A stretch of DNA of 64,000 nt, from positions 1,699,501 through 1,763,500 of the forward strand of contig CP133187.1 of NCBI GenBank assembly GCA_030913685.1. Reading direction: 5' to 3'. Source of the DNA: Oscillospiraceae bacterium MB24-C1. Its GTDB lineage: Bacteria > Bacillota > Clostridia > Oscillospirales > Ruminococcaceae. This document shows positions 4,489 to 28,042 of the stretch, one piece after another. Under the pieces are notes generated by a model. That model made no database searches and was not told the origin of the DNA. It was given only the letters and a program-made list of their open reading frames with translations. Every line of letters starts with the position of its first letter. Positions within the stretch are counted from its first letter, which is position 1. The position numbers and the translations under genes are program-made.

Positions 4489-4519
4489 AACGCCGGTGCA
4501 ATTGATTTGCATCGGCGTT
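4489..4519. terminator. Bidirectional terminator between queT and the flavoprotein gene
   Basis: AACGCCGGTGCAA (4489-4501) pairs with TTGCATCGGCGTT (4507-4519) with one mismatch. T-rich runs flank it on both strands, which suits the convergent gene arrangement. Confidence 0.7.
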
Positions 4520-4587: not shown

Positions 4588-5649
4588 CTATTGTTCTAAT
4601 AGGTGGTTGAGCATTTTTTGTGTGAAGCGAGCCAGTCTCTCCTCAATACCCGGCAGCTTTAAAGCTGAACCGGGGTCGTTGGCGGTTTCCATCAGGCAAA
4701 AATCCGGCGGCAACCAGAACCCTTTATTCATGCATAGCGCCGAAACAAGCTGCGCCGCTACAATATCGCCGCCGGAGTAACCCGACACCACAACTCCAAA
4801 CAAAGCCTTGCGGTCGAAGGATGCGGTGCGATATAACGCAGTGAGTCGGTTGATGCAGGCAGTAAGATTGGCGGACAGCGCATCATTATAATTCGGACAC
4901 AGCATCACGAGGGCATCGGCCTCGCGGATGGCAGGATAAACCTCTTGCACCATCACGCCACCGTAAAAACACTCGCCCTTTTCGCCAAAGTGTAGGCACA
5001 TGGTGTAGGGGCAACCGGAACAATCCTCCATCGTGCCATTGCGCAGGCCGATTTCGGTGATGTCGCAGTTCGGCGGTAGTGCTTGTTTCACTTGGCTCCA
5101 AAGTGCCATTGTATTGGAGGTTTTGTAGCTGGAGGCGTGTAGTACCAAAACTTTGGGATGCACCTGCCTCGGCGGCTCAAAGCTCAGAATGCGGTCGATG
5201 AGATCGCCAACCGCCAATCGATAAGCTGTTTCCAATGTGCATCCGGCGTTTTTAGCCTGAACTGCAAAGTTGTGTAGCGAACCGATGGCCTCTACCATCG
5301 GGCGACCGGGGAAAATACACCCGGCCCCATTGGCCGCCAATACCAAATCGCGCCCTACTGCCTTGGTGTAAAGTTCGCCTGCTCCATCGACCAAAACGCC
5401 TGCTACGCTATCCTGAAGATACGCTGGGCAGCCCCTAAGCAGCGACAACAATTGACACAGCGTCGGGTTGATACCGGCTTTATCCAGCGATACCGCGAAC
5501 AAAATACACCGATTATGCAGTGGCAGGTCGGCATCCAATCGAGTAAGAATTTCAGTGCGGTGACCCTTTGCAGCCGCCTCCAGCGTCTCAATAAACCGCC
5601 CTGACGTGGTGTCTTCGGGGCAGATAACGGTCAGAATTCGCTCCGACAT
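4588..5649 (-). CDS. Flavodoxin-fold NAD(P)H-dependent oxidoreductase-like protein
   Basis: 353 residues in two parts. Residues 1 to about 160 form a region I cannot assign. From about 165 (VLVLHASSYKTSNT) a flavodoxin/FMN-reductase-like fold begins, as in iron-sulfur flavoproteins. A cysteine cluster DCSGCPYTMCLHFGEKGEC follows (near residues 210-230), then the FMN-loop-like CPNYNDALSANL. The Cys spacing recalls the Fe-S flavoprotein family, so FMN and possibly a cluster are likely, but the substrate is unknown. The ATG follows AAGGAG. It is the last gene of a three-gene operon, 12 nt after the dehydrogenase-like gene. The unassigned N-terminal half is unusual for simple FMN reductases. Confidence 0.7.
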   Translation of the reverse strand: MSERILTVICPEDTTSGRFIETLEAAAKGHRTEILTRLDADLPLHNRCILFAVSLDKAGINPTLCQLLSLLRGCPAYLQDSVAGVLVDGAGELYTKAVGRDLVLAANGAGCIFPGRPMVEAIGSLHNFAVQAKNAGCTLETAYRLAVGDLIDRILSFEPPRQVHPKVLVLHASSYKTSNTMALWSQVKQALPPNCDITEIGLRNGTMEDCSGCPYTMCLHFGEKGECFYGGVMVQEVYPAIREADALVMLCPNYNDALSANLTACINRLTALYRTASFDRKALFGVVVSGYSGGDIVAAQLVSALCMNKGFWLPPDFCLMETANDPGSALKLPGIEERLARFTQKMLNHLLEQ

Positions 5650-5661
5650 TAAACCATCTCC

Positions 5662-6906
5662 TTAAATGATTGCGGAGAGTGTCTGCTGTGTTTCCAACAG
5701 TCTTTTATACAGGACGTCCGGCAGCGCCAGACCTTCGATTTCAATTCCAGTTGTGGTAAAACGATTGCGGCAGCCAAACCATACGCCACCTAGACAGACC
5801 GAGCCACAGTGCCACTGCCCGCGCAGTGTCAGTAGCAACTGGAACGCACCCGAAGAAAGCGCCGGCGCCACATAGGGCTTGAAGCCTATTTCGCGAATAC
5901 GAAGGTTGGCGGTTTTCACCATTTCGGTTAATTCCTGGGAAATTGTGTCGTCATAAGATTCAAGCGAGTTTGCGATCACCAATCCCTCGCCATGGGGGCC
6001 AAAGCTTCGCCCCTCGGTTAAAAAGCTACGGAATCTCTCTTCCTGTTTGGCCAGTGCGGCAGCTCTAGCATTCATCACCCCGAGGCCAAAACCTTGCACC
6101 TGCTCAGCCAGTAGACCCTGCCCGTCCCAAGCGCCGTCTTCTTCCTGATTGGAGGCGAGATACGCCGCTTTACATAACGGATCAACGGGATCGGAGAGTA
6201 CGATAAATAGTCCTTTAAAATTTGCGCTGCGTGCCAATTTGGCGTAGTGTTCAACAATGGCGCGGTTAGCAGCAAACTGTGCCATCCGCACATCTTTAAC
6301 GGCGCTCCCAACAGCGGGGATCGCTTTAGTAGCTGCAAAGATAAAAACGTCACAATCAAACAAATTTGCCATATCGACCGCTTCCACATTGGGCAGCGCG
6401 TCATAGTCCCATGGCCAGGCGATCTGGCTCATCTCCGCTGTCCAACGGGCTACCGTGTTGGAATTCAGGTCGCAGATGCCAATGGTTTCGATACAGTCAC
6501 CCCCCAGCAGCTTTAAACCGGTAAGCAGGGTGCCGCCCACATCGCCCACCGCCAACAGATGGACGCGATTGCGCTTTGGTTTAAACGCCGTCATATCGAT
6601 AGCCTCGCGCCAGCGCGGATGCCGGATATTGACCGCAGCCAGCGCGCGCTGTTCAATGCGGTTCAGAATATCTGCGGGTACTTTCGCCCCGTTGTCGGCG
6701 ATGCGGGCGGGGTCGAGCCATGCGACCGACTCCGGCGCCATGAGTTGTTTGGAGTCGGTCACGCAAAACGTGGCCCGTCGATTTTCGGGCGGTGCATCAA
6801 ACAAAAAGGCCAGCGGTTGCATCGCGTTCGGATTTGCCACCTTTTGTAACGGTAGGTCTGGCGACAATGCCGCGTAGGTTCGGTCATTTCCCTGATAATA
6901 ATACAT
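5662..6906 (-). CDS. Lactate/malate dehydrogenase-like Rossmann protein
   Basis: About 414 residues. After an N-terminal extension of roughly 110 residues comes HLLAVGDVGGTLLTGLKLLG, a nucleotide-binding loop like that of LDH/MDH enzymes. Next are ICDLN at the end of beta-2 (an acidic residue that favours NAD over NADP) and LSDPVDPL, the counterpart of the NPVD motif in that family. The canonical catalytic Arg and His segments are not obvious to me, so activity and substrate are uncertain. The ATG at 6906 is used: it lies 8 nt after GGAG and just past the stop of the upstream giant gene. An in-frame GTG at 6915 overlaps the ribosome-binding site. It is the middle gene of the operon. Confidence 0.65.
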   Translation of the reverse strand: MYYYQGNDRTYAALSPDLPLQKVANPNAMQPLAFLFDAPPENRRATFCVTDSKQLMAPESVAWLDPARIADNGAKVPADILNRIEQRALAAVNIRHPRWREAIDMTAFKPKRNRVHLLAVGDVGGTLLTGLKLLGGDCIETIGICDLNSNTVARWTAEMSQIAWPWDYDALPNVEAVDMANLFDCDVFIFAATKAIPAVGSAVKDVRMAQFAANRAIVEHYAKLARSANFKGLFIVLSDPVDPLCKAAYLASNQEEDGAWDGQGLLAEQVQGFGLGVMNARAAALAKQEERFRSFLTEGRSFGPHGEGLVIANSLESYDDTISQELTEMVKTANLRIREIGFKPYVAPALSSGAFQLLLTLRGQWHCGSVCLGGVWFGCRNRFTTTGIEIEGLALPDVLYKRLLETQQTLSAII

Positions 6907-6911
6907 TTTTA

Positions 6912-9900
6912 TCACTCCAATACATCGCGCATTCTTAACAGCATTTTAAGGTCATTTTCCAGATAGGTGGAAGCAGGCAGATTTGGGTCGTAATAAAGAC
7001 AGCTGCCCTTGTCTGGCGAGAGCGGCAGAATGACCGCTTCGCTCAAGCGAGAAAGCGTCAGGTTACGCGCAAACCGACTGCGAAATTCGCTCTCCAACAC
7101 TTTTATGATGTCCCGGGAATTTTCTATGCAGACTTGCGAAAATTTGAAAACTGCATCGCGTCTACATTCCTTATAAAACCGAGGGAACGCATAGGGCAGC
7201 ACAAGATTAATGGCCGGTGTTAGACCGGGAACCGAAGGCTCGTCATGACCAACCGTGTCTCCGCCGATGAATGGATACATGGTCGATTCGACGAACCACG
7301 CCCGGAGGTTCGGCACAAAATAGACACAATCGGCCTTCATACCCTTGGTACGCATCAAATCGCGGCCCTCGCCGCTCATCACCCCCACCAGTACACGGTC
7401 GATGGCAATATTCTCATGCTCGAGCAGCGGAGATAGGGCATTGATGCGGTTACCGGAATGGAGCAGATCATCTACAAGAATCACCGGGCGGCAAAAAGAT
7501 TTTATGGTGCGTATCTGGCTTTCGAGCGGTGCATAGCCCGGAAATGCTTCAATGTCAAATGAGCGTAAATCCTGCGCAAAAACCTTATCGGTGTGAATCG
7601 TTTTGGTTACAGTGTTCGGAATAGCATTACCGCGCAGAATTTTACCAAAGGGTACGCACATCTTTTCACCCAGCACCCGAGGAACAGTCGGCTCTGCTGG
7701 CACATGGTTTGCCTCAACAATCTTTTGCACGAGCCGATGATAGATAACCTCGGCGTTTAATGACAGCAATAAAGTGCCGGGATAAAGGCCTGTCAGCGCC
7801 TCTTGCATGCGGATGTGCGCCTGCCTAATGGCATCAAGGACGTTTGTGCTCGATGAAAAGGGCTCTTTGAGTGTGGTTGCCAAATTTTGAATCAGCACAA
7901 CGGGTGAGCGCATATCCACCAGCAACAACGGCCTGTCACCGCCCACCTCCGCTTTGACAAAACCCTGACGTCGCAACAGATTGATAACGGCGCTGTCATT
8001 TTTGCGATTAGTTGGATAATACACGGCATAACCACAATCCTCGCCCATTGCGCGGGAAAGCGCCTCGGTCATCAACAGCTGACCGATGTTATAACTGGTG
8101 TTGGAATGGCGCACCAAATGCAGACCAGTCAGCAGCAAAATACGGCCTGCAGTGTGTTTCCGCACATAATTGGTGAGCCTGTCGTCCTGCAGCGCGTCGT
8201 ATAAGTTGATGGCGCTGACAATCCGCATTGTCAGATAACCCAGAATACGCTCACCGTTTCCGGTATCGCGCAAAACGATGACATCATCGCGCAGGTCAAA
8301 GCACGGGGGACGTTTTTTCCCCGAAGTAACGGCAGCTAGTAATTCGGCGCGCTGAGCGTCGTCGGGGTGCTGGGTGGGCAAAAACTCGAGATGTCCGGCG
8401 CGATAAAGGCGCTTATACTGCGGTTCGCGCAGATATAGGCTATGGCGGTAGATATAGTCCTGGACGATGGGGTCGATCAAATTGGAGATGTCTCGTCCCA
8501 AGTCGATATTTTCGCGGATTCTGGTGGAGCTGATATCCTCCAAATAAGGAGGTAGCTGTAATTGCAGCACCTTGCCGCGAATACATCGTAGATCGGCCTC
8601 TGTCTCCGGCCCGTCAGCACTGCTAACACGGCGGAAAACAATATGGTTCATCTCCTGAACACAACCGGGAACGGCAGTGGCTCTGTAGGACGAAGCGTTG
8701 GCCACCACATCACTGCCTACCGCCAGATATAGATCACGTCCGGCAAAAACCTGTCGCAGACGGTCAAGATCGCTTGGGTTAGCCAAATTTACCGGCAGAT
8801 CGTGCGGAAACAAATAAACGTCAAAGCTATCCGCCACCGACATGTTGACAATCTGGCGGCGAACAAGTGCGGGTTGCGCCTTTTTTGACCAGGAAAACTC
8901 GTCAACGGCGAGATAGACCTCGAATCCTAGGTCACGAATGCTTTGCACAATCCCCTTGTGGGAGATTGAAAAAGGATCAAAAGTACCCGGAAAAAAAGCG
9001 ACACGCTCCGGTGGCGAAAAGCAAAACGGCCCATCCTCTATTTTATAAAGCACCAAAAAACGATAGACGTGGGACAGTGCGGCGGCAGTGTAAAAAAAGG
9101 TCAGCTCCCGTTCCCCGTTCTCACTGATGAGACAAAGCAGTTTTTTAGCCACCAAAACAAACAACGCAGACTTATCCGCATAGGTCATCACTTTGGAAGC
9201 AAACAGCTCCTCGCCCAGAATACGCAGCGTCTCCTGTCGCACCGGCTCACGATAAGAGGCCAGCCCTTTTAGGAGCAGCCCCGCCAACCGGTTGCGCCGG
9301 TTGGTCAGCGTAGCGGCGTCCTGTTGAAACCGACTGGCGTAAACCGCATAGCCTGCTAATATGGCCCCCACCGTATCCAGCGCGGCAGTAACCGCAACGC
9401 TGCTGGCTGCACAAAGCAGATTTTCCATCTGGTCGATCAGCTCGTCAAGCTCTCGAGGTGGCAGCCACAGCGAAAAGCGCCCCAGATAGTCCGGAATGTA
9501 TTTGGAAAGCTCAGACTGCCCTGTTTCCAGCGCTTTTGAGAGTTCAACGGCGATTTCATTGCGACGCTCCGGCGTCAACTCGGGTGCCATGGCCAATAAC
9601 GAAGTTCCAGCCATTCGGCGTACAACTACGTTTTCTCCCACCTTAATCAGGTTAGAAAAGTGTGTGGCAATGTGCAATATATTCGTATGATTGCCCTGCT
9701 CAATCAGATCGAGCAGGTACTCCACGCCCACAGCTTTCATAATCCAGGGAGTGGCGGTTTTAAGATTGTCCAAAAAAATGTTTGAAACAGCGGATTGTCG
9801 GCTTAAAAAGCCATCCGGCGCGGTGGTATCATACCCAAGCATCCGCCCCAAATATGCCTGTAAAAATAGTAGCGGAGTGCTGCCTTCACAGTCGGCCGTT

Positions 9901-11735
9901 TCAGCCGCGTGGGCAATCTCGTCGCGTAGCGGGTCATGCTGGGGTAAGATATAAAGCAGATGTCTAAACAGCCGCAATGCGGCCGCCTTTTGGGTCAGCT
10001 CCCCTTTTCTAAGCCACCACATAGCAAAGTTGGCCAGCTTGGCCGATTCCTCCGCGCCACAGAAGGCCGCAGGAATGTTGACAACAGAGTCAAGCAAAGC
10101 AAAGGCTGCGTCCGGTTCAACTGTGGCAGGGTTTTCGTAATGGTCGAACAGCTCATTGGCAAAGACAGCGGCATCGGTATCGGAACAGGAGTCCAGCAAG
10201 GCATCTATGGCAAGCTTGGCCGTATAGCGTATTTTGCTGATTTGCTGGGGTGTCAGCCGACTGTCAGGATAGATGAGCCGGTTAAAATAATCACACCACA
10301 GCTCATAGTGACGGGTGTCGCCCGGAGCCGGTTCACACCCGGTGGGCTGTTCTTTGCGATAACCGGAATGAAACCCTGCCAGAATGCGGCCAATCAAAGA
10401 TGCCGCCTGTCGGCGGATGTCGCCGTCCGGGTACATGAGCAACTCATACAAGAAAGAAAGCATCTGTTCCTTTTGCGCAGTACTCCAATAGGTAAAATAT
10501 TCTTCAAAGACCGAAACATAGGCTCTAAGCCGATCGGGAGATTTCTCACTGCGGGCGGCCTCAAGAATGTTACCAAACAACTGGTCATGTCCCAGCCGAT
10601 GCATCAGGCGGATGTTGTGATCCACAGCACGGTATCGCAGCGCCGCCACCGCCTCATCCATGCTCATTAGCGCTGCATCCTTGACAGGCGCGGGCTGCAC
10701 AGCTGGCAACGCAAGCGTCGTGTCCACCCCGAATGAGCGCATATATTCTTCAAAATCATGTAGCTTGGCATAAACGAACTGATATCGACGACGCTTGGCT
10801 GCGTCGACATGATCAAGTTTTTGCAAAATAACCTCAAAAGAATCGGCGAGAGAAAATATCTGAGAAATTTCGTGCCCATTTACATCGCGGGACTGCTTGA
10901 CCCGAAAATCAGCATAAACCAGCAACAGCGATTCGGAGGACAAATTCTCTATCTCAAGATCCCACACCGAATGGTTGGCCGCAATACGGCCGATGTCACC
11001 CAGCCCACGCCGGGCGCACCAAATGTCGGTATAATGATAATGCAGGTAGGGTACCCGCTCGCCGGCCTTGCAGCCGAATTTGCCGATGTCGTGAACGGCA
11101 GCCGCTGCCGACAGCAACGGTAAATCGACCAGCCCGCCGCCGGCATGAAAAGCCCGCGCGCAAGTCATGGCCACATGGTGTACCCCCGCGATATGCTCCA
11201 GCGTTCGAAACGGGGTGGTTTCGTGCCCTAGCCGCAATAGTTCATAAACAAAAACTTCTTTGAACCATCCACAAAACCGGCGGTATTCATCGGCGCTATC
11301 ATTGCCTTCCAATTCCTCTTTGGTGCAAAAAGCAAAATCAAATTGTGACGAAAAGGGCAACGATACCCGCTCTTCTTCAAACACCTGCTGCAAAACACGC
11401 AGATAGCACAGCGCACCGTCCCACTGCCGATCATCTTGCAACACCTCGGTCTGTGAGAACTGCAGTGCATTGGCAACCTGATAGGCGCAGTCGAGCCATC
11501 CTTCGCGCGGTTCGGGCGCAATGCTGTCCAAAAGAGGACGGACAACGGCCAGAACTTCGCCGCAGGTCATTCGTCGCTGAATGGGCAGCAGGGCAGACAG
11601 CGCCTGCACCCAGTCGACGCGCTCAAACAAAATCGTAGCCGATCGCGCCGACATGTTCAGCCTATTTAAAAAACTTTTATCAATCAGCGCTTGAAAAACG
11701 CGTGTGCCAACATGTCGGTCGAATTGATCTTCCAT
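6912..11735 (-). CDS. Giant multidomain protein: HD domain, helical repeats, NMNAT-like, GNAT-like and PRTase-like domains
   Basis: 1607 residues, apparently cytoplasmic. Visible in order: an N-terminal alpha-helical region; an HD-type metal-binding domain with HH near 186 and VHDIGKFG near 214; a long helical, HEAT-like region from about 370 to 870; a nucleotidyltransferase domain with PGTFDPFSISHKG near 916 and ISSTRIRE near 1068; a GNAT-like segment near 1150-1265; a phosphoribosyltransferase-like PRPP loop VILVDDLLHSG near 1418; and a C-terminal tail. The nucleotidyltransferase opening is closer to CoaD (PG-S/T-FDP), while the ISSTxIR end is closer to NadD. The start at 11735 follows GGAGG; an upstream in-frame ATG (11828) lacks one. 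It leads an operon with a dehydrogenase-like and a flavoprotein gene. A role in nucleotide or cofactor chemistry is inferred; the substrate is unknown. Confidence 0.8.
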   Translation of the reverse strand: MEDQFDRHVGTRVFQALIDKSFLNRLNMSARSATILFERVDWVQALSALLPIQRRMTCGEVLAVVRPLLDSIAPEPREGWLDCAYQVANALQFSQTEVLQDDRQWDGALCYLRVLQQVFEEERVSLPFSSQFDFAFCTKEELEGNDSADEYRRFCGWFKEVFVYELLRLGHETTPFRTLEHIAGVHHVAMTCARAFHAGGGLVDLPLLSAAAAVHDIGKFGCKAGERVPYLHYHYTDIWCARRGLGDIGRIAANHSVWDLEIENLSSESLLLVYADFRVKQSRDVNGHEISQIFSLADSFEVILQKLDHVDAAKRRRYQFVYAKLHDFEEYMRSFGVDTTLALPAVQPAPVKDAALMSMDEAVAALRYRAVDHNIRLMHRLGHDQLFGNILEAARSEKSPDRLRAYVSVFEEYFTYWSTAQKEQMLSFLYELLMYPDGDIRRQAASLIGRILAGFHSGYRKEQPTGCEPAPGDTRHYELWCDYFNRLIYPDSRLTPQQISKIRYTAKLAIDALLDSCSDTDAAVFANELFDHYENPATVEPDAAFALLDSVVNIPAAFCGAEESAKLANFAMWWLRKGELTQKAAALRLFRHLLYILPQHDPLRDEIAHAAETADCEGSTPLLFLQAYLGRMLGYDTTAPDGFLSRQSAVSNIFLDNLKTATPWIMKAVGVEYLLDLIEQGNHTNILHIATHFSNLIKVGENVVVRRMAGTSLLAMAPELTPERRNEIAVELSKALETGQSELSKYIPDYLGRFSLWLPPRELDELIDQMENLLCAASSVAVTAALDTVGAILAGYAVYASRFQQDAATLTNRRNRLAGLLLKGLASYREPVRQETLRILGEELFASKVMTYADKSALFVLVAKKLLCLISENGERELTFFYTAAALSHVYRFLVLYKIEDGPFCFSPPERVAFFPGTFDPFSISHKGIVQSIRDLGFEVYLAVDEFSWSKKAQPALVRRQIVNMSVADSFDVYLFPHDLPVNLANPSDLDRLRQVFAGRDLYLAVGSDVVANASSYRATAVPGCVQEMNHIVFRRVSSADGPETEADLRCIRGKVLQLQLPPYLEDISSTRIRENIDLGRDISNLIDPIVQDYIYRHSLYLREPQYKRLYRAGHLEFLPTQHPDDAQRAELLAAVTSGKKRPPCFDLRDDVIVLRDTGNGERILGYLTMRIVSAINLYDALQDDRLTNYVRKHTAGRILLLTGLHLVRHSNTSYNIGQLLMTEALSRAMGEDCGYAVYYPTNRKNDSAVINLLRRQGFVKAEVGGDRPLLLVDMRSPVVLIQNLATTLKEPFSSSTNVLDAIRQAHIRMQEALTGLYPGTLLLSLNAEVIYHRLVQKIVEANHVPAEPTVPRVLGEKMCVPFGKILRGNAIPNTVTKTIHTDKVFAQDLRSFDIEAFPGYAPLESQIRTIKSFCRPVILVDDLLHSGNRINALSPLLEHENIAIDRVLVGVMSGEGRDLMRTKGMKADCVYFVPNLRAWFVESTMYPFIGGDTVGHDEPSVPGLTPAINLVLPYAFPRFYKECRRDAVFKFSQVCIENSRDIIKVLESEFRSRFARNLTLSRLSEAVILPLSPDKGSCLYYDPNLPASTYLENDLKMLLRMRDVLE

Positions 11736-11920: not shown

Positions 11921-11967
11921 AATGCGCCGGCCAATACCGTTTTTCAAACAGCATTGACCAGCGCATT
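11921..11967 (-). terminator. Terminator after panT
   Basis: On the minus-strand RNA, 15 nt pair fully with their partner (11953-11967 with 11921-11935), using two G-U wobbles, and TTTCTTAAT follows. On the plus-strand RNA the same two positions become A-C mismatches. That points to function on the minus strand, downstream of panT. Confidence 0.6.
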
Positions 11968-12014: not shown

Positions 12015-12635
12015 TTAAAGCCGCTGTCGTACGGCGACAGTACACAGCGCCTTAGAAATGGCCCCCGCCAGCACGCAGCAGGCTACCGCCTCGATCAATC
12101 CGTTGATGCCGACAAAAGCCAGTGCAAATGAAAAGGCACTTCTCGTCCCCATTCCGGTGACAATTTTCTGTATGAAATCGGTTTTATAAAAGAACAAAAC
12201 CAGAAAGGTCATAAAAAACAGGGTGTTAAACAGTGCGCCTAGAAAGCTGGTGGCCGCAAATGACAACAGTTTCTTTTTGTCCATCCGTGAAAGCGCTGCA
12301 AAAACAACACCGGTTAAAAAGCCCATGATTACACGGGGCACGAGACAGGTTAAAATCGTACCGACAGGATTGATCCCCATCAGTGCAGTACCAAAAGGCT
12401 CAAGCCCAAAGCATTGGATGAGCGATGTCACACCAAACGCCAGCCCCAGGACAGCCCCCGTCATCGGCCCCATAACAATTGCGCCGATAATCACTGGCAC
12501 AGACAACAGCGTGATACTCAAACCTCCGGTTTTAAAATATCCCAGCGGTGTAAAGGCCATTACAAAAATGATTGCCGTCAGCAATGCCGTACGTACCATT
12601 TTGCTCGCGCCGTGCTTTTTCTTTAAGTTTGACAT
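12015..12635 (-). CDS. panT: ECF transporter S component, predicted pantothenate transporter PanT
   Basis: 206-residue polytopic membrane protein with about six hydrophobic segments. GPMTGAVLGLAFGVTSLIQC and the NPVGTILTCLVPR segment fit the PanT group of ECF S components, which bind pantothenate and work with a shared EcfA-EcfT module encoded elsewhere. It follows coaX, pantothenate kinase, on the same strand, which supports the substrate call. The ATG follows GAGGAG with 7 nt spacing. Between the two genes is a 222-nt gap containing a closed RNA structure that may control this gene separately. Confidence 0.8.
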   Translation of the reverse strand: MSNLKKKHGASKMVRTALLTAIIFVMAFTPLGYFKTGGLSITLLSVPVIIGAIVMGPMTGAVLGLAFGVTSLIQCFGLEPFGTALMGINPVGTILTCLVPRVIMGFLTGVVFAALSRMDKKKLLSFAATSFLGALFNTLFFMTFLVLFFYKTDFIQKIVTGMGTRSAFSFALAFVGINGLIEAVACCVLAGAISKALCTVAVRQRL

Positions 12636-12696
12636 TGTTATTCTCCTCGCTGCCGCTCACCTTATACCGCCCCATTAAAAATTGAATAACTTAATA

Positions 12697-12775
12697 GACA
12701 GATTTTCGTCTAGCAAGGGCGAAGAGGAAAACGGGCTACCGCCTACCGCCGACGATGCAAAACCCAAAATCTGTC
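12697..12775 (-). promoter_or_regulatory. Structured RNA element in the panT leader, class unknown
   Basis: On the minus strand GACAGATTTT (12775-12766) pairs perfectly over 10 bp with AAAATCTGTC (12706-12697), enclosing 59 nt. Inside, CGTC can pair with GACG and GGCG with CGCC, and a small GGC-GGTA-GCC hairpin forms next to a tandem GGCGGTA repeat. This is the layout of a P1-closed aptamer with a junction. It ends about 60 nt before the panT start. I could not match it to FMN, TPP, THF, preQ1 or other ECF-linked riboswitch classes by eye. Confidence 0.45.
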
Positions 12776-12857
12776 GCAAAGAAACCATTTTTTATTGGGC
12801 CCACAGTATCAATGGGATGCGACGCATTATTTATAATCCGCCCGCAGCGCAGGCTTG

Positions 12858-13622
12858 TTACACGTTTTTCTTGTAAATGGTTAAAAGGCCGTCTAACAGC
12901 AGATCGTTGTCAATGGTCACATTGCGCTTGCAGTGGGGAATAACGGCATTAGCCAGCCCGCCGCAAGCTACGACGGTTTTAACCTCGCCCAGTGCCTCGG
13001 AAAAGCGGTCGATCATGCCATCCACCATTGAGGCCGTGCCCAGAATACTGCCGGACATCATGGCATCCACCGTTTCGGTGCAGATAACCTTGAGCTCACT
13101 GCTAAGGCCCACTGCAGGTAGCAGCGCAGTGCTTTTAGTCAATGCGCCCAGGGATACCAGCACGCCAGGGGCAATCGCGCCGCCGATATAAGCCTTGTTT
13201 GCATCCACAACAGTAATCTTCGTCGCCGTGCCGAGGTCAATAATGATCGCGGGCAATGGATATTTGGTCATTGCGCCCACCGCTGTGCAGCAGAGGTCGG
13301 CTGCCAGCGTGCTCGGGTCATCTATGCGAATATTAAGCCCAGTCTTGACACCTGGGCCGACCGCCAGAACCGGAATATCGCAGATCACTTTGATGGCCTG
13401 CTTCATTACCGAGGTCAGGTTTGGTACCACCGAAGAAATCGCCGCGCCGGTCAGCGCTTTAGCGTCGATGTCATGCAACGCAAAAATATTAAAAAGCAGC
13501 ACCGCGTGCTCGGTATCGGTGCGCAGTGGATCGGTTTTTATACGAGCAGAGAACACCAGTCCCTCCTGCTTGTGTACTCCAAAAACAATGTTGGAGTTGC
13601 CGATATCTATAGTTAGAATCAT
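12858..13622 (-). CDS. coaX: Type III pantothenate kinase
   Basis: Phosphorylates pantothenate to 4'-phosphopantothenate, the first step of CoA synthesis, in the cytoplasm. The 254-residue length fits CoaX. It opens with MILTIDIGNSNIVFG, the ASKHA phosphate-binding loop. IDLGTATKITVVD is the second conserved nucleotide-binding motif, and GGAIAPGVLVSLGAL is the CoaX signature. The ATG at 13622 follows GGAGG; the longer in-frame version (13658) would start inside the promoter. It lies upstream of panT, so uptake and first phosphorylation are encoded together. It is divergent from parA. Confidence 0.95.
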   Translation of the reverse strand: MILTIDIGNSNIVFGVHKQEGLVFSARIKTDPLRTDTEHAVLLFNIFALHDIDAKALTGAAISSVVPNLTSVMKQAIKVICDIPVLAVGPGVKTGLNIRIDDPSTLAADLCCTAVGAMTKYPLPAIIIDLGTATKITVVDANKAYIGGAIAPGVLVSLGALTKSTALLPAVGLSSELKVICTETVDAMMSGSILGTASMVDGMIDRFSEALGEVKTVVACGGLANAVIPHCKRNVTIDNDLLLDGLLTIYKKNV

Positions 13623-13657
13623 AAACGTGCCTCCGCAGTGGATTTTTGTGCATTCCA

Positions 13658-13687
13658 ATAATACGCCCTGTACGTCGTTTTTGTCAA
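13658..13687 (-). promoter_or_regulatory. Sigma-A promoter for coaX
   Basis: On the minus strand TTGACA (13687-13682) and TATTAT (13663-13658) are separated by 18 nt, with the start codon about 36 nt after the -10 box. Confidence 0.75.
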
Positions 13688-19891: not shown

Positions 19892-20704
19892 TTATGCCTG
19901 CGCAATGGCCATCATTTGATCAAACTTATCGGCTTTTTGCTGTGCTTTTGCCAATTCGCTTTGCAGCCTCTCACATTCAGCTTTTTTAGCCTCATAAAGC
20001 CTTCGATAATTTGGCCCATTCGCCACCGTCAGCCCATTTAGTCCCGCAGCTGCGATCGTAGCGGGGTAATCCACATAGCAATAGTTGCGATCACAAGGGC
20101 CGGTGACACCAGTACAAGTTCCCTTGTCGCCAAGATACTGCCACATGCCATAGTTTCTACGGCCTATTTGGCTTTGCATTAGTCTCTCATTGCCGCGGTA
20201 ATCGGCAATCCACAGATCATAGGCCGCTAGCCGCGCGCGGTCAAGGTATTGGATTGCAAAAGCGGTATAGGTATACCACACTGCATAATAGCCCATCCGC
20301 TCGCACTCTTCTAAGAATGCTATCACCGTATTGGTCAGACCAGCCTTACCCTGCTCAGTCAGACAGGGTAACACCGTCTCTTCCACATCAAACGCAATTG
20401 GCAGGTTTATGATGCCAGGGTAGCGTTTGGCAATTTTAACACATTCCGCGGCTGCTATCCGCGCTGCAGCGGGCGTTTTGGTGTAGGTGTAAACATACAG
20501 TCCTACATCTAAACCCGCGGCATGTGCCCCTTTTATGCTTGTATCAAGGCTCTGGTCAACGGCTTTATTAGCAGCAATACCACCCTCGTACCCCGCCCAT
20601 CCAATACGGATCATGACGCCCGAAATACCAGCTGTCCTTACCTTATTCCAGTTGATAGTGCCGCGGCGCACATTGTGTTCGGAAATATCAATCATTTCAA
20701 GCAT
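19892..20704 (-). CDS. Phage-type GH25 lysozyme (endolysin)
   Basis: 270-residue glycoside hydrolase family 25 muramidase that cleaves the MurNAc-GlcNAc bond of peptidoglycan. The catalytic domain starts at once (MIDISEHNVRRGTINW), with the acidic pair in LPIAFDVEET near residue 128 and WIADYRG near 190. The C-terminal 40 residues are charged and probably coiled-coil (YEAKKAECERLQSELAKAQQ), in place of a known wall-binding repeat. No signal peptide is seen, so export needs the upstream holins. The ATG follows GGAGG. It is the last gene of the phage module. Confidence 0.92.
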   Translation of the reverse strand: MLEMIDISEHNVRRGTINWNKVRTAGISGVMIRIGWAGYEGGIAANKAVDQSLDTSIKGAHAAGLDVGLYVYTYTKTPAAARIAAAECVKIAKRYPGIINLPIAFDVEETVLPCLTEQGKAGLTNTVIAFLEECERMGYYAVWYTYTAFAIQYLDRARLAAYDLWIADYRGNERLMQSQIGRRNYGMWQYLGDKGTCTGVTGPCDRNYCYVDYPATIAAAGLNGLTVANGPNYRRLYEAKKAECERLQSELAKAQQKADKFDQMMAIAQA

Positions 20705-20706
20705 GG

Positions 20707-21042
20707 TTAATCCTCCGTGCGCTCAATGTCAGGCATTGTACTGTCCAACAGCTTATTAAGCTGTATCTTAGCGTATGCCGTCATTACATCAAAAGTGCTT
20801 TGCACTAAGCTTTCCACCATCTGCTTGGTAATAAATGCGTTTAGCGGTGCTGGAACCATGCTATACACTTTGCCGCAGACCCACTCAAATTTTATCCGGC
20901 CTGAATTGGTGTCGCCATATACCGCCTCTGCCTGGGCAATCAGGCTACCGATTTCGCTTTTCAATCTGCTGTTTGTCCGGTAATAAGCCATTGCCAACCC
21001 CATCAAAAAGAGTGTTAGCCATTTTGCCGCTTCAAAAAACAT
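20707..21042 (-). CDS. Phage holin, LLH-like
   Basis: 111 residues with one N-terminal transmembrane segment (AAKWLTLFLMGLAMAYY) followed by a soluble helical region. This matches the superfamily of LLH-type phage holins, which permeabilise the membrane so that endolysin can escape. It lies 2 nt before the lysozyme gene and directly after a second holin gene. The family call rests on topology, size and position. Confidence 0.6.
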   Translation of the reverse strand: MFFEAAKWLTLFLMGLAMAYYRTNSRLKSEIGSLIAQAEAVYGDTNSGRIKFEWVCGKVYSMVPAPLNAFITKQMVESLVQSTFDVMTAYAKIQLNKLLDSTMPDIERTED

Positions 21043-21044
21043 AC

Positions 21045-21458
21045 TTATTCTTCCCCCTCCTTTTCTTTACGTTTTAATATTTCGATAGTGTTGATAATGA
21101 TGGGCGGGATGGGGACCCCCATCAACCCAAGATTTTCAATAATGCTTACTGTTTCGTTTGTCACAAATGCGATAACGGCAGCATCTCTGATATAGGTCCC
21201 TCCGGTTAGTAAGTCCAGCCGGCAAGCTATATAAATCAGCATCAGCATACCGCCTTTTTTAAACAGCCCTCGTAACCCCGCTGCGCTAGATAAGGCTCCG
21301 CCTTCAGTCTTATTGCTTCTAGCAAACACCGCCGCAACCGTGACGCCAGTGATATAATCTACCGCCATAAAGCCTACAAGTGTCTGTAGCGCCGTATCCC
21401 AGCCGCCAAGCAGCGCCGTAATCGTCGCCCCTGCCAGTCCTATAACCGTATTCGCCAT
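21045..21458 (-). CDS. Phage holin, toxin-secretion/phage-lysis holin family (phi-holin 4-like)
   Basis: Small membrane protein with three to four hydrophobic helices, including TALLGGWDTALQTLVGFMAV and the DYITGV motif typical of phage_holin_4/TcdE-like proteins, and a charged C-terminus (KRKEKEGEE). The start is uncertain: ATG 21458 gives 137 residues with weak GGAAAG upstream, TTG 21497 gives 150 residues, and the open frame reaches 21560. It is one of two adjacent holin genes, an arrangement common in lysis cassettes. Confidence 0.8.
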   Translation of the reverse strand: MANTVIGLAGATITALLGGWDTALQTLVGFMAVDYITGVTVAAVFARSNKTEGGALSSAAGLRGLFKKGGMLMLIYIACRLDLLTGGTYIRDAAVIAFVTNETVSIIENLGLMGVPIPPIIINTIEILKRKEKEGEE

Positions 21459-21534
21459 TATTTTTGTGCTTTCCGTTTTTAATCCCCCCTCGCTCAAAAC
21501 CTTCGCAGCATTCCCACGGTGGCCACAAAGGCTT

Positions 21535-21729
21535 TTATTCAATCCACACACCCGACTCAAACCGGTTCCAAATCATCGTCTTCTGGTCAAGATGCGCAAA
21601 GGTTAGGCCCTCACTTTCTAGCGCCGTCCAGCTCAGAGGCCGATATTCTGCCCCAACCGACAAGATAAACGAAGCCCCCGCCATCACCGTGGCAGGGGCT
21701 ATCGCCGCCGGCATGAATTTAATCGACAT
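21535..21729 (-). CDS. Small tail-associated protein sharing a C-terminal module with the YmfQ-like protein
   Basis: 64 residues. The N-terminal half is hydrophobic and Ala-rich. The C-terminal half, from LSWTALESEGLTF to ESGVWIE, closely resembles the last 33 residues of the tail protein encoded at 25525-26088 (LVWNELDAQGLTF to ERGEWIG). The pattern L.W..L...GLTF..LD.....W...E.G.WI is shared. Function unknown; a virion-assembly or attachment module is plausible. Its start overlaps the end of the upstream gene by 11 nt. Confidence 0.6.
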   Translation of the reverse strand: MSIKFMPAAIAPATVMAGASFILSVGAEYRPLSWTALESEGLTFAHLDQKTMIWNRFESGVWIE

Positions 21730-21988
21730 AGAGCATCAGCCGCTCCTTTCGAGTCTCAGGCGGCACCGTCACCGAAAGGTCCAGCTGATACATACCCTTG
21801 TTAGCAGGTGCGATCAGCGCGCGAACAATCTTGCCATCCACTTTACAGTTACCGGCTTCCACCGTCGCGCCATTTTGCTGCAATGACCAGGTTGCCTCGG
21901 TGATAACCACCGTGTCGTCCGTGCGGCGGGGGCGGACTTCAAACTCGAGGTAGCGCTGTTCCCCCAGTACAAATCGTAAACTGTTCAC
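21719..21988 (-). CDS. Phage-module protein of unknown function, beta-rich
   Basis: 89 residues from a GTG at 21988, which has GGAGG about 8 nt upstream; longer in-frame starts lack one. The sequence (YLEFEVRPRRTDDTVVITEA, then TWSLQQNGATVEAG) alternates hydrophobic and polar residues and looks like a single beta-sandwich domain. It lies between Ig-like genes and the lysis cassette, so a role on the tail surface is plausible. I do not recognise a named family. Confidence 0.6.
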   Translation of the reverse strand: MNSLRFVLGEQRYLEFEVRPRRTDDTVVITEATWSLQQNGATVEAGNCKVDGKIVRALIAPANKGMYQLDLSVTVPPETRKERLMLYVD

Positions 21989-21990
21989 TC

Positions 21991-22293
21991 TCAAAACCTC
22001 CAATGCCGCACAAATCGGATTTGCCACCGCTCGGGAATCCGCTCAATCTCCAGATTATCCGGCAACAAAAGGAATGCCGGCGCCTCCTGCCGCATAGATA
22101 AATTGCAAATGCCGGCGCACAGATACAAAACACCGCGATAGTCGACGATATTGCCCGCCTCGTCGGCCGCTGACAGCGTCATCACATACTGGCCGTCGGC
22201 GAGATCGGGCGGCAGGGTTGCCCGCCACCCGTTACCGGTTGGCGTCAGTACCAGCTCATGCCCGTCGGCGCTGCCACGAACCGCCGTGATCAT
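21991..22293 (-). CDS. Small Ig-like-domain phage protein
   Basis: 100 residues beginning MITAVRGSADGHELVLTPT. The segment GQYVMTLSAADEAGNIVDY matches an equivalent segment in the larger Ig-like protein just upstream (YNVSLSAADEAGNISTAD), so it is one bacterial Ig-like domain with a different tail. Its start overlaps the end of that gene by 4 nt (ATGA), implying coupled translation. The C-terminal 40 residues (LPDNLEIERIPERWQIRFV) are unassigned. Confidence 0.65.
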   Translation of the reverse strand: MITAVRGSADGHELVLTPTGNGWRATLPPDLADGQYVMTLSAADEAGNIVDYRGVLYLCAGICNLSMRQEAPAFLLLPDNLEIERIPERWQIRFVRHWRF

Positions 22294-23204
22294 GACAGGC
22301 TCACCGATAGAACATAGGTCTGACCGGCATCTACCGGATTCGGGGTTAGTGTCACGCTGACAAACTCGGGCGGTACGGTGTCCACCGTCAAGGTACGGGT
22401 TACGCTCGTGGTCTTGCCCGCCGAATCGATCGCCGTAATAACTACGCTATTGCTGCCCTCAGCATAGGTCACCGCCTTGCCAAAGCTGCCATCCCCGTTG
22501 ACCGTTACTGCACCGGTGTCCACGCCGTTGACCTTAATGGACAGTGTGACAGGGCTGCTGGTGGCGTCGCTCGTCGTGCCGGATACCATGCCGGCGGTCT
22601 TGTTGGTGATCAGCCCAGCCGCAGGCGAGATGACGTTGAGCGTTGGCGCCACCGTGTCGACGGTGAAGCTACGCGAGGCCGTAGTCGACATGTTGCCGTC
22701 GTTGTCAGCCACCGCTACGGTCAGAGTGTGCGCCCCATCGGGGAGTGCCGTCTGCGGCGTGTAGCTGATATTATACCCACCCGCTACCGGTGTGCAGGTC
22801 ATACCAGCTGCGTTGTAGGCCATCGCCACGCCGTCGAGCTTGAACGAAAGTGTAGAAATCTTCACACCGCTGTCCGCGTCGCGCAACTGCGCGGTGATTG
22901 TCAGCATGTTGGTGGTGAGAAAAGCCGACGCGCCTGGCGAAACGATACTCACTGTTGGCTTTACCTTTTCCTTGACCACCAGACGCAAGCTTGTTCCAAT
23001 TTCCATATCGGTGGCGTCTGCTGTCGAGATATTTCCCGCTTCATCCGCTGCCGACAGACTGACATTATAATACCCACCGCCCTGGTTAAAGGACGAGCCC
23101 GAGGGCGCGGTTAGCGTCGCTTCCCACTTGCCGGTAGAAGAATTGAAGTTTAAGGGATGGGTCACGCCATTGATTGTCGCCGTGATGGTTGCAATGCTGC
23201 TCAT
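22290..23204 (-). CDS. Multi-Ig-like-domain phage surface protein
   Basis: 304 residues containing about three to four bacterial Ig-like sandwiches. Recurrent landmarks are SLSAADEAGNIS, TVAVADNDGNMSTTASRSFT and VITAIDSAGKTTSVTRT, each closing a domain, with VDTVAPTLNVISPA and VDTVPPEFVSVTLTP as linkers. There is no signal peptide, as expected for a virion component. Such domains decorate tails and capsids and may bind cell-surface carbohydrate. It is followed by the smaller Ig-like gene with a 4-nt overlap. Confidence 0.78.
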   Translation of the reverse strand: MSSIATITATINGVTHPLNFNSSTGKWEATLTAPSGSSFNQGGGYYNVSLSAADEAGNISTADATDMEIGTSLRLVVKEKVKPTVSIVSPGASAFLTTNMLTITAQLRDADSGVKISTLSFKLDGVAMAYNAAGMTCTPVAGGYNISYTPQTALPDGAHTLTVAVADNDGNMSTTASRSFTVDTVAPTLNVISPAAGLITNKTAGMVSGTTSDATSSPVTLSIKVNGVDTGAVTVNGDGSFGKAVTYAEGSNSVVITAIDSAGKTTSVTRTLTVDTVPPEFVSVTLTPNPVDAGQTYVLSVSLS

Positions 23205-23218
23205 AACCGCGTCCCCCT

Positions 23219-23401
23219 TTAAGCTTCATAGGCCGCGCCGATAAAACCCGTGTAATCCTCGGCAGAGATCACACCGTTGACCACGTCGGTTTTGGCGAGG
23301 ACCAGAACCGGCTCTTTCATTTCATAAGGAATGGATGCATAAGTACGGTTATTGCGCTTGATGCTGCGCCAGTACGATGCGGCAATATAGATATTGCCCA
23401 T
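23219..23401 (-). CDS. Small phage-module protein, unknown
   Basis: 60 residues, MGNIYIAASYWRSIKRNNRT and onward, soluble, with a tight context: it shares one base with the upstream gene and ends 14 nt before the Ig-like gene. The conserved spacing within the late operon supports a real gene. No family was recognised. Confidence 0.6.
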   Translation of the reverse strand: MGNIYIAASYWRSIKRNNRTYASIPYEMKEPVLVLAKTDVVNGVISAEDYTGFIGAAYEA

Positions 23402-23637
23402 TACATGCCACCTCCCAGCGTTTGATGCAACGCGATGATTGCCTCATCCTGAGAGGCGAGCTGTGATTCGATGTCTGCGACCCTGTTCGACGGGATATAA
23501 GGCGTACCAGCGTAAGCCTCGCCGGTAATTTCGGCGTATTCCGTCTCGGTTAGCTTGCCTTTTTCAACAAGCTTGGCAACCATTTCTGTTGGCCATGTGC
23601 GCCCATAATTCTGCTTGCAAAGTTCTTTAGTTGTCAT
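23401..23637 (-). CDS. XkdX-like small tail protein
   Basis: 78 residues. The first half (NYGRTWPTEMVAKLVEKGKLTETEYAEITG) resembles XkdX-type proteins, which carry a short helix-turn motif ending in 'I.T..EY..ITG'. The C-terminal 25 residues look coiled-coil (VADIESQLASQDEAIIALHQ). These are small tail or baseplate-associated proteins encoded near the fibre genes. The ATG follows GGAGG. Confidence 0.65.
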   Translation of the reverse strand: MTTKELCKQNYGRTWPTEMVAKLVEKGKLTETEYAEITGEAYAGTPYIPSNRVADIESQLASQDEAIIALHQTLGGGM

Positions 23638-23649
23638 GATGTTTCCTCC

Positions 23650-24003
23650 CTACATTGTTAACAGGTTTTGATATTCCAACGCGGCTGCCGTGCGTTCCTC
23701 GGCGCTGATGGCACTTGCAACCTGTACCGCTCTCACATCTTCCCACGCCTCGATTTCGTCTAGAATGGTCTGCGCTGTGTCGACAGACAGCGTCAGTGCG
23801 GTAGTAAAGCCTGCCATTTCAGCGCGTAGCAGCATGTCCTCCATACAATCAGAGATATCGCCGTTGATACTGCCAGCGCAGACAATGGGGTACTCCGATT
23901 CGGCCTCAGGGTGGCGAAGCATCCACTCCTCGGGGGTTAGACGCTCACCGATTCTAGTTTTTACAATATCGCTCTTATTCCAAATTTTATAACGTTTTGA
24001 CAT
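23650..24003 (-). CDS. Phage-module protein, possible tail-fibre accessory
   Basis: 117 residues: MSKRYKIWNKSDIVKTRIGE, then LTPEEWMLRHPEAE and an acidic, helical C-terminus. It follows the Kelch-propeller gene by 12 nt and has a GGAGG site, which fits a tail-fibre assembly or accessory role. No family was assigned with confidence. Confidence 0.6.
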   Translation of the reverse strand: MSKRYKIWNKSDIVKTRIGERLTPEEWMLRHPEAESEYPIVCAGSINGDISDCMEDMLLRAEMAGFTTALTLSVDTAQTILDEIEAWEDVRAVQVASAISAEERTAAALEYQNLLTM

Positions 24004-24015
24004 GTTGTTTCCTCC

Positions 24016-25104
24016 TTACGATACTTGAAAAACGTCTACGACATTAGAGTAAGTGCTCCCAGTCCATCCGCCTCCAAACAAGGCATAATTGTTAATTGAT
24101 GTCGAATACGTTACTCTTGCCACGCTTAATGCCGTGGTCGCTACTGCTCTAGTTAAAGAAGCATCATAAACGTCTACCACATTAAAATAGTCTTTTCCCG
24201 AGCGTCCACCGCCAAACAAAGCATAATCACTGACCGATGCAGCGCCCATTGCTGATTTTGCCACGCTTAAAGGCAGTAGCGTGGTGCGGGTAAGAGCTAC
24301 GTCGTAGGCGTCCACTACTGTAAGTCTGCCCGTGGAATTCTCTCCACCTGCAAACAACGCAGTATTATTCACTGTAGCACCAGATGTGAAGCGTGCTTCA
24401 CTTAGCAGCGCAGGAATTATACGGGTCAGCGAACTATTGTAGGCATCAACAACATCACTGTAACTGGAAGCAATACCTCCCGCAAACACTGCAATACCAC
24501 CAATACGTGTCGCTGCTAAGCTCCGCCTGCCTACAGATAATGGGGTTGGGAGTACCCGTGTTAGTGATGCGCTATACGCATCTACCACATCGCTATAACC
24601 TGCAAAAATTCCATAGATTCCGTTGGAAACGGCTGACAGCTGGGTCCTTGCTACGCTTAGGCCTGTAGGATTCGTCTTTGAAAGGGACAGATTATAAGCA
24701 TTAACAGTGCTAATTGGATTTCGGTTGTGCCCCCCGCCAAATAGCACATAGTCACCAATAGAGGTTGCAGCTAATTGCGCAGCCGCCGAGCTCAACGCCG
24801 CAGGGATAGTCCGAGTTAACGATGAATTGTAGGCATCCGTCGCCGCACTGTAATCGAACGCCGCACCTCCCGCAAAAATAGCGTACGCGGCATTTGAAGC
24901 AGAAGCTAGGCTGCCTCTAGCTGCACTCAACGCCGTAGCGACTCCGTAATAAGTGAGTTCCCCGCCACTAAAACACAACCTCGCCACGCCGCCCACGCCA
25001 ATCCATGCCTTTTTAACCTTACGAGCCTTGCCACTTACACCGGTAAAGACCTTTTTCACTTTGCGGGCCTTACTCCCCACGCCGATAAACATTCCTTTAG
25101 CCAT
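24016..25104 (-). CDS. Kelch-like seven-repeat beta-propeller tail protein
   Basis: 362 residues. The N-terminal 45 residues contain about three short copies of an 'xGVGGKARKVKK' unit. The rest is about seven repeats of roughly 42-48 residues, each with an Y.LFGGG-type strand and VVDAYxxSLTR, closed by LSVAR. The fit is to a seven-bladed Kelch-type propeller, with the first partial unit (ALSAARGSLAS) and the last (YALFGGGWTGSTYSNVVDVF) probably closing the ring. It sits where host-range tail-fibre proteins are encoded, so it may bind the host surface. The ATG has a normal spacing. Confidence 0.78.
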   Translation of the reverse strand: MAKGMFIGVGSKARKVKKVFTGVSGKARKVKKAWIGVGGVARLCFSGGELTYYGVATALSAARGSLASASNAAYAIFAGGAAFDYSAATDAYNSSLTRTIPAALSSAAAQLAATSIGDYVLFGGGHNRNPISTVNAYNLSLSKTNPTGLSVARTQLSAVSNGIYGIFAGYSDVVDAYSASLTRVLPTPLSVGRRSLAATRIGGIAVFAGGIASSYSDVVDAYNSSLTRIIPALLSEARFTSGATVNNTALFAGGENSTGRLTVVDAYDVALTRTTLLPLSVAKSAMGAASVSDYALFGGGRSGKDYFNVVDVYDASLTRAVATTALSVARVTYSTSINNYALFGGGWTGSTYSNVVDVFQVS

Positions 25105-25115
25105 GCCGCCACCGC

Positions 25116-27552: not shown

Positions 27553-27989
27553 CCCCCCTTTTACCGCCATCAGAAAAACGGCGGATTTTTGCAAGCAAAA
27601 ACGGCTCAGACACACCCTTTCCCAGCCGGCTTGTGAAGGGAGGTGCCTTTGCCGCATTCTTACAACTACACATTACTACATTTGAGCAGTGGCTTTCTAT
27701 GGCGATTTTCAGCCAGTGCCAATTTATTTGAGTCGCTGCTGTTTGTGTGCAAAAGTCGGTGCAGCCCATTAAAGGCCACACCGACATGTTTTAATTTATT
27801 TACAATTATAATTCATACGTCCACGTTAAATGTTAGATGTATCAAATAATAAAAAGACGCCTTACTAATGCCTCCTCTATTAGAGGCCTACATAAGCATC
27901 AGGGAAATCTATTTTGACGTATCATATCGTTGACGCCCTCACGCTGCCAAATCATCCTTGACCATCAACAGCAGATTGTTTTTATACGC
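27553..27989. other. Gene-poor junction between the phage module and the tRNA genes
   Basis: No convincing gene. It contains a stem-loop (27755-27784, GTCGGTG with CACCGAC) and an AT-rich stretch. A minus frame over 27476-27787 lacks a ribosome-binding site and resembles no protein I know. The missing proximal phage genes probably ended here; any attachment-site scar is not obvious. Confidence 0.5.
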
Positions 27990-28040: not shown

Positions 28041-28042
28041 TC

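Follow-up and report, generated by a model that had tools for sequence, protein, structure and literature searches.

The active-site motif of the nucleotidyltransferase NadD is HxGH, and nucleotidyltransferase domains can share a polypeptide with others; the citrate lyase ligase CitC also joins a nucleotidyltransferase and a GNAT domain, in an order different from that described below. Also known are fusions of NadD to the HD hydrolase YqeK, which hydrolyzes wrong analogs of nicotinate adenine dinucleotide (NaAD) (PMC9426524). The same paper reports that YqeK also hydrolyzes NaAD itself and 8-oxo-GTP, and Ap4A cleavage by YqeK has been reported as well (cited in PMC9426524). Here, we analyzed a 64,000-nt stretch (the window) of Oscillospiraceae bacterium MB24-C1, part of a one-contig genome of 2.95 Mb, in which HD and NadD-like domains lie within one large fusion protein (FUS), whose gene is followed by genes for a protein resembling lactate and malate dehydrogenases (LDH/MDH) and for a flavoprotein:

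6912..11735, minus strand: FUS, an open reading frame (ORF) of 1607 aa with the order HD, alpha-solenoid, NMNAT-like, GNAT-like, phosphoribosyltransferase (PRTase)-like, C-terminal extension
5662..6906, minus strand: dehydrogenase-like gene with LDH/MDH fold, recognized by a match to LDH in the Protein Data Bank (PDB), by hhalign and by Ldh_1_N
4588..5649, minus strand: FMN-reductase-like flavoprotein, recognized by PF03358; conserved partner of FUS

Searches of Pfam, NCBIfam, PADLOC and the PDB yielded no described system that combines the three proteins, and open-licence PMC papers gave no account of one. We therefore rate the three-part system as new; every individual fold is known. Single-domain annotation would label FUS a nucleotidyltransferase and overlook the system.

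Three proteins forming one functional unit

FUS, the LDH-like protein and the flavoprotein form one functional unit, as shown by their co-occurrence, gene order and co-divergence. In a phylum sample of 398 genomes, the three proteins match the identical eight genomes, which belong to eight genera and five families, and none of them matches any of the other 390 (alignment thresholds of E 1e-30 for FUS, E 1e-20 for the LDH-like protein and E 1e-40 for the flavoprotein). The genome survey that the original prediction had named as a check of the three-gene linkage thus came out in its favor, with the genes together or absent and usually neighbors. This all-or-none pattern makes the system testable, as carriers and non-carriers share one family.

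The best 80 of 548 confirmed FUS candidates are 44–68% identical to the window's copy over nearly the full length, save at contig ends. Since its relatives are full-length, its catalytic residues vary little or not at all and its distribution is shared with the partners, the FUS gene is not a chance product. Gene order was counted at 67 loci of these 80 relatives, namely those with at least 2.8 kb downstream of FUS, the other 13 being too short. FUS, the LDH-like gene and the flavoprotein gene follow each other in this order on one strand at 52 of the 67 loci, 38 of them with gaps below 300 and 350 nt, and L042 is a 53rd locus with this order, in which the LDH frame is over-extended. Among the remaining 14 loci, a partner is missing, moved or inverted in five (L058, L061, L089, L091 and L094), and neither partner is near FUS in nine. 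A whole-genome search of 14 genomes without a partner beside FUS, a set that L091, which has no flavoprotein nearby, is outside of, showed that 13 hold the sought partner. The LDH-like protein was found in 11 of 12 and the flavoprotein in 11 of 12 such genomes; ten genomes were searched for both, and in nine of them both partners are present, on one contig within 600 nt. At L034 and L048 the partners may really adjoin FUS, as the contigs end just after it. Pairwise distances of the three proteins are correlated (0.89, 0.91 and 0.85 over 71 rows, L014 and L016 having been dropped from the distance and tree set), with permuted correlations of at most 0.28 (500 permutations each); part of this correlation is shared descent.

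No other neighbor gene is conserved across lineages in the 95 stretches counted, the largest real-looking neighbor family (family 5) occurring in 10 of them. Because some neighbor families, e.g., family 3, are antisense shadow frames, the counts for the trio rest on the gene order at the 67 loci. We found no gene common to the wide-gap FUS-LDH intervals, of which L066 and L068 hold look-alike inserts, and none common to the eight stretches with the partner pair apart from FUS. In L179 (6250-9682), where the two partner genes are separated from FUS, a small flavodoxin-like gene stands between them and a YqeC-like gene follows. Three of these eight, related Oscillospiraceae stretches (L175 1548-2870, L176 1930-3306 and L177 2027-3268), share a nucleotidyltransferase-like gene, TmcAL-like as far as we can judge by eye, a few kb from the partner genes; this is probably lineage synteny. 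In L113, FUS lies without adjacent partners near three TerD-like genes, and the partners are elsewhere in that genome.

FUS is present in four of the five genomes of the window's genus but in few others, with full-length FUS occurring five times in 61 genomes and three times in 295 genomes (window genome included). Its nearest relatives by name are those of Oscillibacter, Dysosmobacter and other Oscillospiraceae, and carriers include the gut genera Oscillibacter, Dysosmobacter, Flintibacter and Pseudoflavonifractor. L101 (34% identity) and L115-L117 (35–40% over the C-terminal half), the most divergent members, also have FUS as a single chain of 1568–1625 aa and both partners adjacent. In a draft FastTree tree with long branches, the FUS copies of three gut metagenome-assembled genomes (MAGs) labelled Chloroflexota (L080, L082 and L095) form one branch inside Bacillota, which suggests transfer. 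The three-protein unit is conserved in five families of the phylum sample and in Chloroflexota-labelled gut MAGs.

In the same tree, the FUS of the window falls in the Oscillibacter/Dysosmobacter clade, and those of the same-genus genomes G002-G004 (L013, L015 and L057 listed) are on another branch, at 54–55% identity; lineages may have exchanged the operon. A mobile or phage origin found no support, with no FUS relatives in phage records or viral contigs and one match in a plasmid collection, a 2.6-Mb record of Acetoanaerobium noterae that is probably a chromosome.

Within the window, the FUS ORF is uninterrupted and starts with an ATG at 11735 after a strong ribosome-binding site (RBS)-like GGAGG; initiation at an alternative GTG at 11828, in the same frame, would lengthen the product to 1638 aa. 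For the LDH-like gene, the start is an ATG at 6906, 5 nt past the FUS stop (an alternative GTG at 6915 would overlap this stop), and the flavoprotein gene starts at 5649, 12 nt past the LDH-like stop, and ends at 4588. The original prediction of a three-gene operon was thus right about the gaps of 5 and 12 nt and too short in its limits of 5649-11735, as the flavoprotein reaches 4588. All three genes have an RBS-like sequence at their start, and two terminator-like hairpins flank them:

11922..11966, minus strand: 20-pair hairpin in the interval between the upstream energy-coupling factor (ECF) transporter gene and FUS (pattern match, no proof)
4489..4519, plus strand: 13-pair hairpin on the 3′ side of the operon, between convergent genes (pattern match, no proof)

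Given the RBS-like starts, the succession of the genes and the flanking hairpins, the trio looks like one transcription unit.

Domain architecture of FUS

FUS can be divided into the following regions:

10701..11288, minus strand: HD domain region, FUS residues 150–345 (invariant residues, PF01966, NTPtran_DVU1551)
9033..10661, minus strand: HEAT-like alpha-solenoid, residues about 359–901 (helical model, solenoid matches)
8424..9008, minus strand: NadD/NMNAT-fold nucleotidyltransferase, residues about 910–1104 (structure match, PDB profile matches, residue counts)
7908..8396, minus strand: GNAT-fold domain, residues about 1114–1276 (structure match, loop counts)
7146..7883, minus strand: type I PRTase-like region with VILVDDLLHSGNR, residues 1285–1530 (Foldseek, residue counts)
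6915..7145, minus strand: C-terminal extension, residues 1531–1607, with conserved RNLTLSRLSEAVILPL and PDKG (sequence)

The two halves were modelled separately with AlphaFold2 from alignments of window and locus sequences, with a mean predicted local distance difference test (pLDDT) of 90.8 and a predicted template modelling score (pTM) of 0.87 for residues 1–905 (59 sequences), and 89.2 and 0.88 for residues 880–1607 (58 sequences). Of the folds proposed earlier from motifs, the models support the Rossmann nucleotidyltransferase and the GNAT domain and, modestly, the PRTase-like one; the HD domain is supported by sequence. The 1607-residue fusion gene also carries all the motifs quoted for it, HDIGK (residues 215–219), PGTFDP (916–921), S-I-S-H (923–926), ISSTRIR (1068–1074) and VILVDDLLHSG (1418–1428). 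Residues were counted in 95 FUS rows, which include the window and in which contigs L014/L057 and L016/L081 are counted twice, and likewise in 80 LDH-like and 73 flavoprotein rows.

The nucleotidyltransferase domain matches 4rpi in the structure search with Z 18.2 and a root-mean-square deviation (rmsd) of 2.6 over 185 residues, and NadD/NMNAT proteins fill the first 44 of the best 50 matches listed (Z 14.6–18.2); PDB profile matches of the region start at E 1e-8. FUS shares with NadD/NMNAT the fold, the PGTFDP and ISSTxIR motifs, the second His, a G-x-D motif and an aromatic residue at the presumed nicotinate-stacking place. P916, G917, F919, D920, H926, S1069, S1070, I1073 and R1074 are invariant in all 95 rows. 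At the HxGH-equivalent site, the first position is Thr in 53 and Ser in 42 rows, the third Ser in 90 and Gly in 5, and the last is His throughout. Y1017, invariant in 33 rows, aligns in HMMER alignments with a Trp of the NadD structures 8aih and 5llt that stacks on nicotinate, so that an aromatic residue is kept at this place.

In contrast to NadD/NMNAT, FUS has Ser or Thr for the first His of HxGH, embeds the domain in a 1607-aa context and stays under the TIGR00482 cut-off, with 39.5 for the window's copy (cut-off 112.45) and likewise for the copies of 14 out of 14 carriers. A separate NadD over this cut-off is present in 13 of the 14, the 14th being a draft genome of 91% completeness. This rules out FUS as the cell's NadD and indicates that it is an additional activity. 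PF01467 scores 22.5 for the C-terminal half alone (cut-off 21) and 20.6 for the whole window protein, and matches 58/58 FUS members at E 0.01.

The domain had been described as a CoaD-like/NadD-like hybrid. Its Rossmann nucleotidyltransferase fold and motifs bear this out on the NadD side, and the CoaD side falls away, as the fold is closest to NadD/NMNAT. CoaD chains do occur among the PDB profile matches, covering the N-terminal part of the region, and the Ser/Thr-x-x-His site resembles that of CoaD. A phosphopantetheine adenylyltransferase of the CoaD type was rejected because both the fold and the full-length profile matches are those of NadD/NMNAT.

The HD domain, noted earlier for its HDIGK-type metal-binding motif, is supported by its invariant metal-site residues and profile matches. 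H181, H215, D216, K219, H232, H255 and D276 are invariant in 95/95 rows, and H181, H215, D216, H255 and D276 make up the metal ligand pattern H...HD...D of HD phosphohydrolases. PF01966 matches 22 of 34 FUS members at E 0.05 (window copy 12.3, under the cut-off of 22). The best HD profile match is the HD part of NTPtran_DVU1551, with 34/34 members, and no YqeK-named model is among the HD matches of these 34. In the structure search with this half, the solenoid (residues 384–905) occupied the matches listed. FUS resembles NadD-YqeK fusions in having an HD hydrolase and an NMNAT domain in one polypeptide, but its HD domain (150–345) lies about 550 residues from the nucleotidyltransferase (from 910), with the solenoid between them and no direct join, it matches NTPtran_DVU1551 best, and additional GNAT and PRTase-like domains and two redox partners are present.

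The predicted helical repeat appears as an alpha-solenoid in the model, where the N-terminal half is all helical except for one short hairpin. Eukaryotic HEAT and ARM solenoids make up most of its structure matches; this indicates no more than a solenoid over roughly residues 360–900.

The GNAT-like region does have a GNAT fold in the model (7ciu, Z 13.9, rmsd 3.1 over 149 residues). The usual acetyl-CoA pyrophosphate loop of GNAT proteins is R/Q-x2-G-x-G/A; no such motif is present in columns 1206–1218, which are variable and gapped. The PRTase-like region shares with xanthine PRTase (XPRT) and other type I enzymes a DD-x3-G loop, with D1422 in 94, D1423 in 92 and G1428 in 88 of 95 rows, and a modest fold match; Foldseek hits to the XPRT entries 2fxv, 6w1i and 1y0b have E 1.6e-4 to 2.3e-4, probability 1.00, template modelling (TM) scores of 0.45–0.46 of target and rmsd 5.8–8.5. 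Unlike these enzymes, it has the loop DDLLHSGNR without Thr and almost no sequence match, with PDB sequences matching weakly at E 0.17 and above. The earlier PRTase assignment is modestly supported by the type I-like fold, and its VILVDDLLHSG loop is atypical as a PRPP loop. PRTase entries are not among the best 50 matches of the Z-scored structure search, which excludes nothing. A search of 199 genomes at E 0.001 gave no stand-alone relatives of the region, the matches being four FUS copies. Since the acetyl-CoA loop is missing and the phosphoribosyl pyrophosphate (PRPP) loop is atypical, both domains may do other chemistry than their folds suggest.

Redox partners and a possible role in dinucleotide metabolism

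The LDH/MDH-like Rossmann protein of the original prediction was confirmed by homology over both domains. Its profile matches LDH in the PDB at E 1e-7, and hhalign aligns it with LDH/MDH at 98.5% (E 2.2e-14, 290 columns), using a set of six ORFs of which one (L171) is evidently a wrong-strand frame. Ldh_1_N matches 43 of 59 members at E 0.01, the window's copy being under the cut-off. The catalytic residues of L-lactate and malate dehydrogenases are Arg, Asn, Asp, Arg and His. Like these enzymes, the LDH-like protein has the Rossmann glycine motif, an NAD-type Asp, two Arg (R210 and R284) and a His (H308), all kept in 80/80 rows; hhalign places R284 (AR) as well as D242 (SDPVD), and H308 was placed by eye. 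It differs from them in two invariant active-site replacements, considered below, and most members are also extended at the N-terminus by about 105 residues. Frames of 315–328 aa seemingly without this extension occur in L090 (12868-13815), L091 (6904-7890) and L117 (6426-7412), so the extension may be dispensable in some lineages.

The flavoprotein is the sole protein of the window's trio that is clearly over a curated cut-off (PF03358, 72.6 bits; cut-off 24), and its profile has no PDB sequence match at E 0.01. The Cys cluster noticed earlier in this flavodoxin-fold protein consists of four invariant residues:

4969..5022, minus strand: four-cysteine cluster C210-x2-C213-x4-C218-x8-C227, each Cys invariant in 73/73 rows

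The protein resembles FMN reductases and iron-sulfur flavoproteins in PF03358 and in four invariant Cys in the C-terminal half, and differs from them in an additional N-terminal half and in the C-x2-C-x4-C-x8-C spacing, which is not the usual one of iron-sulfur flavoproteins.

The NMNAT fold with its kept catalytic residues, the aromatic residue at the nicotinate place, the HD hydrolase and the PRTase-like domain point to the handling of an NAD-type dinucleotide. The reading that we think most likely, though tentative and given somewhat less than an even chance, and in which we infer every substrate, product and step direction, is that the unit makes, proofreads and redox-cycles such a compound. 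In this scheme, PRPP would be coupled to a base by the PRTase-like domain, or be bound by it. The aromatic mononucleotide so formed would receive an adenylyl group from the NMNAT-like domain, and faulty or used-up product would be hydrolyzed by the HD domain, in the way that YqeK serves NadD. The solenoid and the GNAT-like domain would act as scaffold for the active sites. The flavoprotein with its four cysteines and the LDH-like protein would then be oxidoreductases dedicated to the product, which they use, reduce or modify. As both partners have redox folds, this product is plausibly a redox-active nucleotide. The pathway of the original prediction, for a nucleotide-linked or redox cofactor, likewise stays at the level of inference. 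YqeK-NadD proofreading (PMC9426524) serves as a working model for HD and NMNAT domains in one protein. If the dinucleotide reading is true, it would add a cofactor pathway to anaerobic metabolism.

A more far-reaching version, which we consider unlikely, is that the dinucleotide is a redox cofactor not described so far, both made and used by the operon, with FUS building it from PRPP, a base and ATP and removing misbuilt copies, and the LDH-like protein with its altered active site and the four-cysteine flavoprotein acting as its private oxidoreductases. These anaerobes would then have a redox pool separate from NAD(P)(H).

Several observations weigh against the dinucleotide reading. In the place of the Thr that classical PRTases have in their PRPP loop (DD-x2-T-[TS]-G), FUS has His in 89 and Asn in 5 of 95 rows; the Pfam PRTase model Pribosyltran matches 1 of 58 members, and the match of the region to 2fxv is modest (Foldseek E 1.6e-4, TM 0.46 of target). 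In the LDH-like protein, 80/80 rows have Asp for the Asn of SNPVD and Met for the Asp that precedes A-R by two residues, and given these invariant replacements the protein may not be a dehydrogenase. The nucleotidyltransferase residues alone cannot separate nicotinate mononucleotide (NaMN) from another acceptor. No further pathway gene or transporter conserved near FUS was found, and in L027 (G721), a 1.9-Mb MAG with FUS, neither partner was found. The YqeK precedent, too, leaves the role unfixed because YqeK also hydrolyzes NaAD and other nucleotides (PMC9426524). It is the unusual PRPP loop and the altered LDH-like site that hold our confidence at this tentative level.

The unit might instead handle ordinary NAD(H), which is possible, if rather doubtful: FUS would be a second, regulated adenylyltransferase for NaMN or nicotinamide mononucleotide (NMN) with a hydrolase attached, and the redox proteins would repair or rebalance NAD(H). 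The closest fold is that of NadD, and the invariant Rossmann Asp of the LDH-like protein fits NAD. YqeK proofreading of NadD products (PMC9426524) is in line with this. However, 13 of 14 carriers keep a separate NadD; the frame that holds it in the window genome has 393 aa, a length that could accommodate a NadD-YqeK fusion. In FUS, moreover, Ser or Thr stands for the first His of HxGH in 95/95 rows and Tyr for the Trp, and the usual nicotinate PRTase has another fold.

We regard as quite unlikely a sensor or signalling device in which PRPP or purines are bound by a non-catalytic PRTase-like domain, an adenylylated alarmone is formed by the nucleotidyltransferase and removed by the HD domain, and the redox proteins signal the redox state. 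In its favor, the PRPP loop is atypical, XPRT is the nearest PRTase match, with one entry titled for ppGpp density, and YqeK is reported to cleave Ap4A (cited in PMC9426524). Against it, the catalytic residues of the HD and nucleotidyltransferase domains and most LDH ones are strictly conserved, and the neighborhood of FUS has no conserved regulator or effector gene.

A CitC-like FUS, whose nucleotidyltransferase would activate an acid as adenylate and whose GNAT-like domain would move the acyl group onto a partner protein, is very improbable: the GNAT fold and the pairing of domains found in CitC are there, but the GNAT pyrophosphate loop is absent, no citrate lyase or CitC model is among the Pfam/NCBIfam-type profile matches, and the domain order of CitC differs. 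Most improbable is that enzyme domains make up a conflict system here, against phages or otherwise. The patchy distribution (8/398) and the probable transfer, with Chloroflexota-labelled rows inside Bacillota, speak for it; against it, PADLOC models match none of the three proteins at E 0.1, phage records and viral contigs hold no relative and, by eye, 15 neighborhoods show no defense gene save the TerD-like genes at L113.

Other features of the window

Upstream of FUS, an ECF transporter substrate-binding gene (PF12822) lies directly downstream of a gene whose CoaX-like name we took over from the original prediction (12015-13658, the panT-coaX pair). That these genes may be only neighbors is supported: the stretches around the 80 relatives, some of them short, gave no match to either gene, and a terminator-like hairpin separates the pair from FUS. 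A functional link was accordingly rejected.

Positions 1-30000 of the window contain no RNA elements at gathering scores besides two tRNAs. A phage-tail-like stretch (19892-28235) adjoins tRNA-Glu and tRNA-Met; its lysozyme-like, fibre-like and baseplate-like ORFs are perhaps a prophage remnant or a tail-like particle. Further along, three genes at 59828-62606 resemble, by eye, the lipoprotein, permease and ATPase of an ABC importer.

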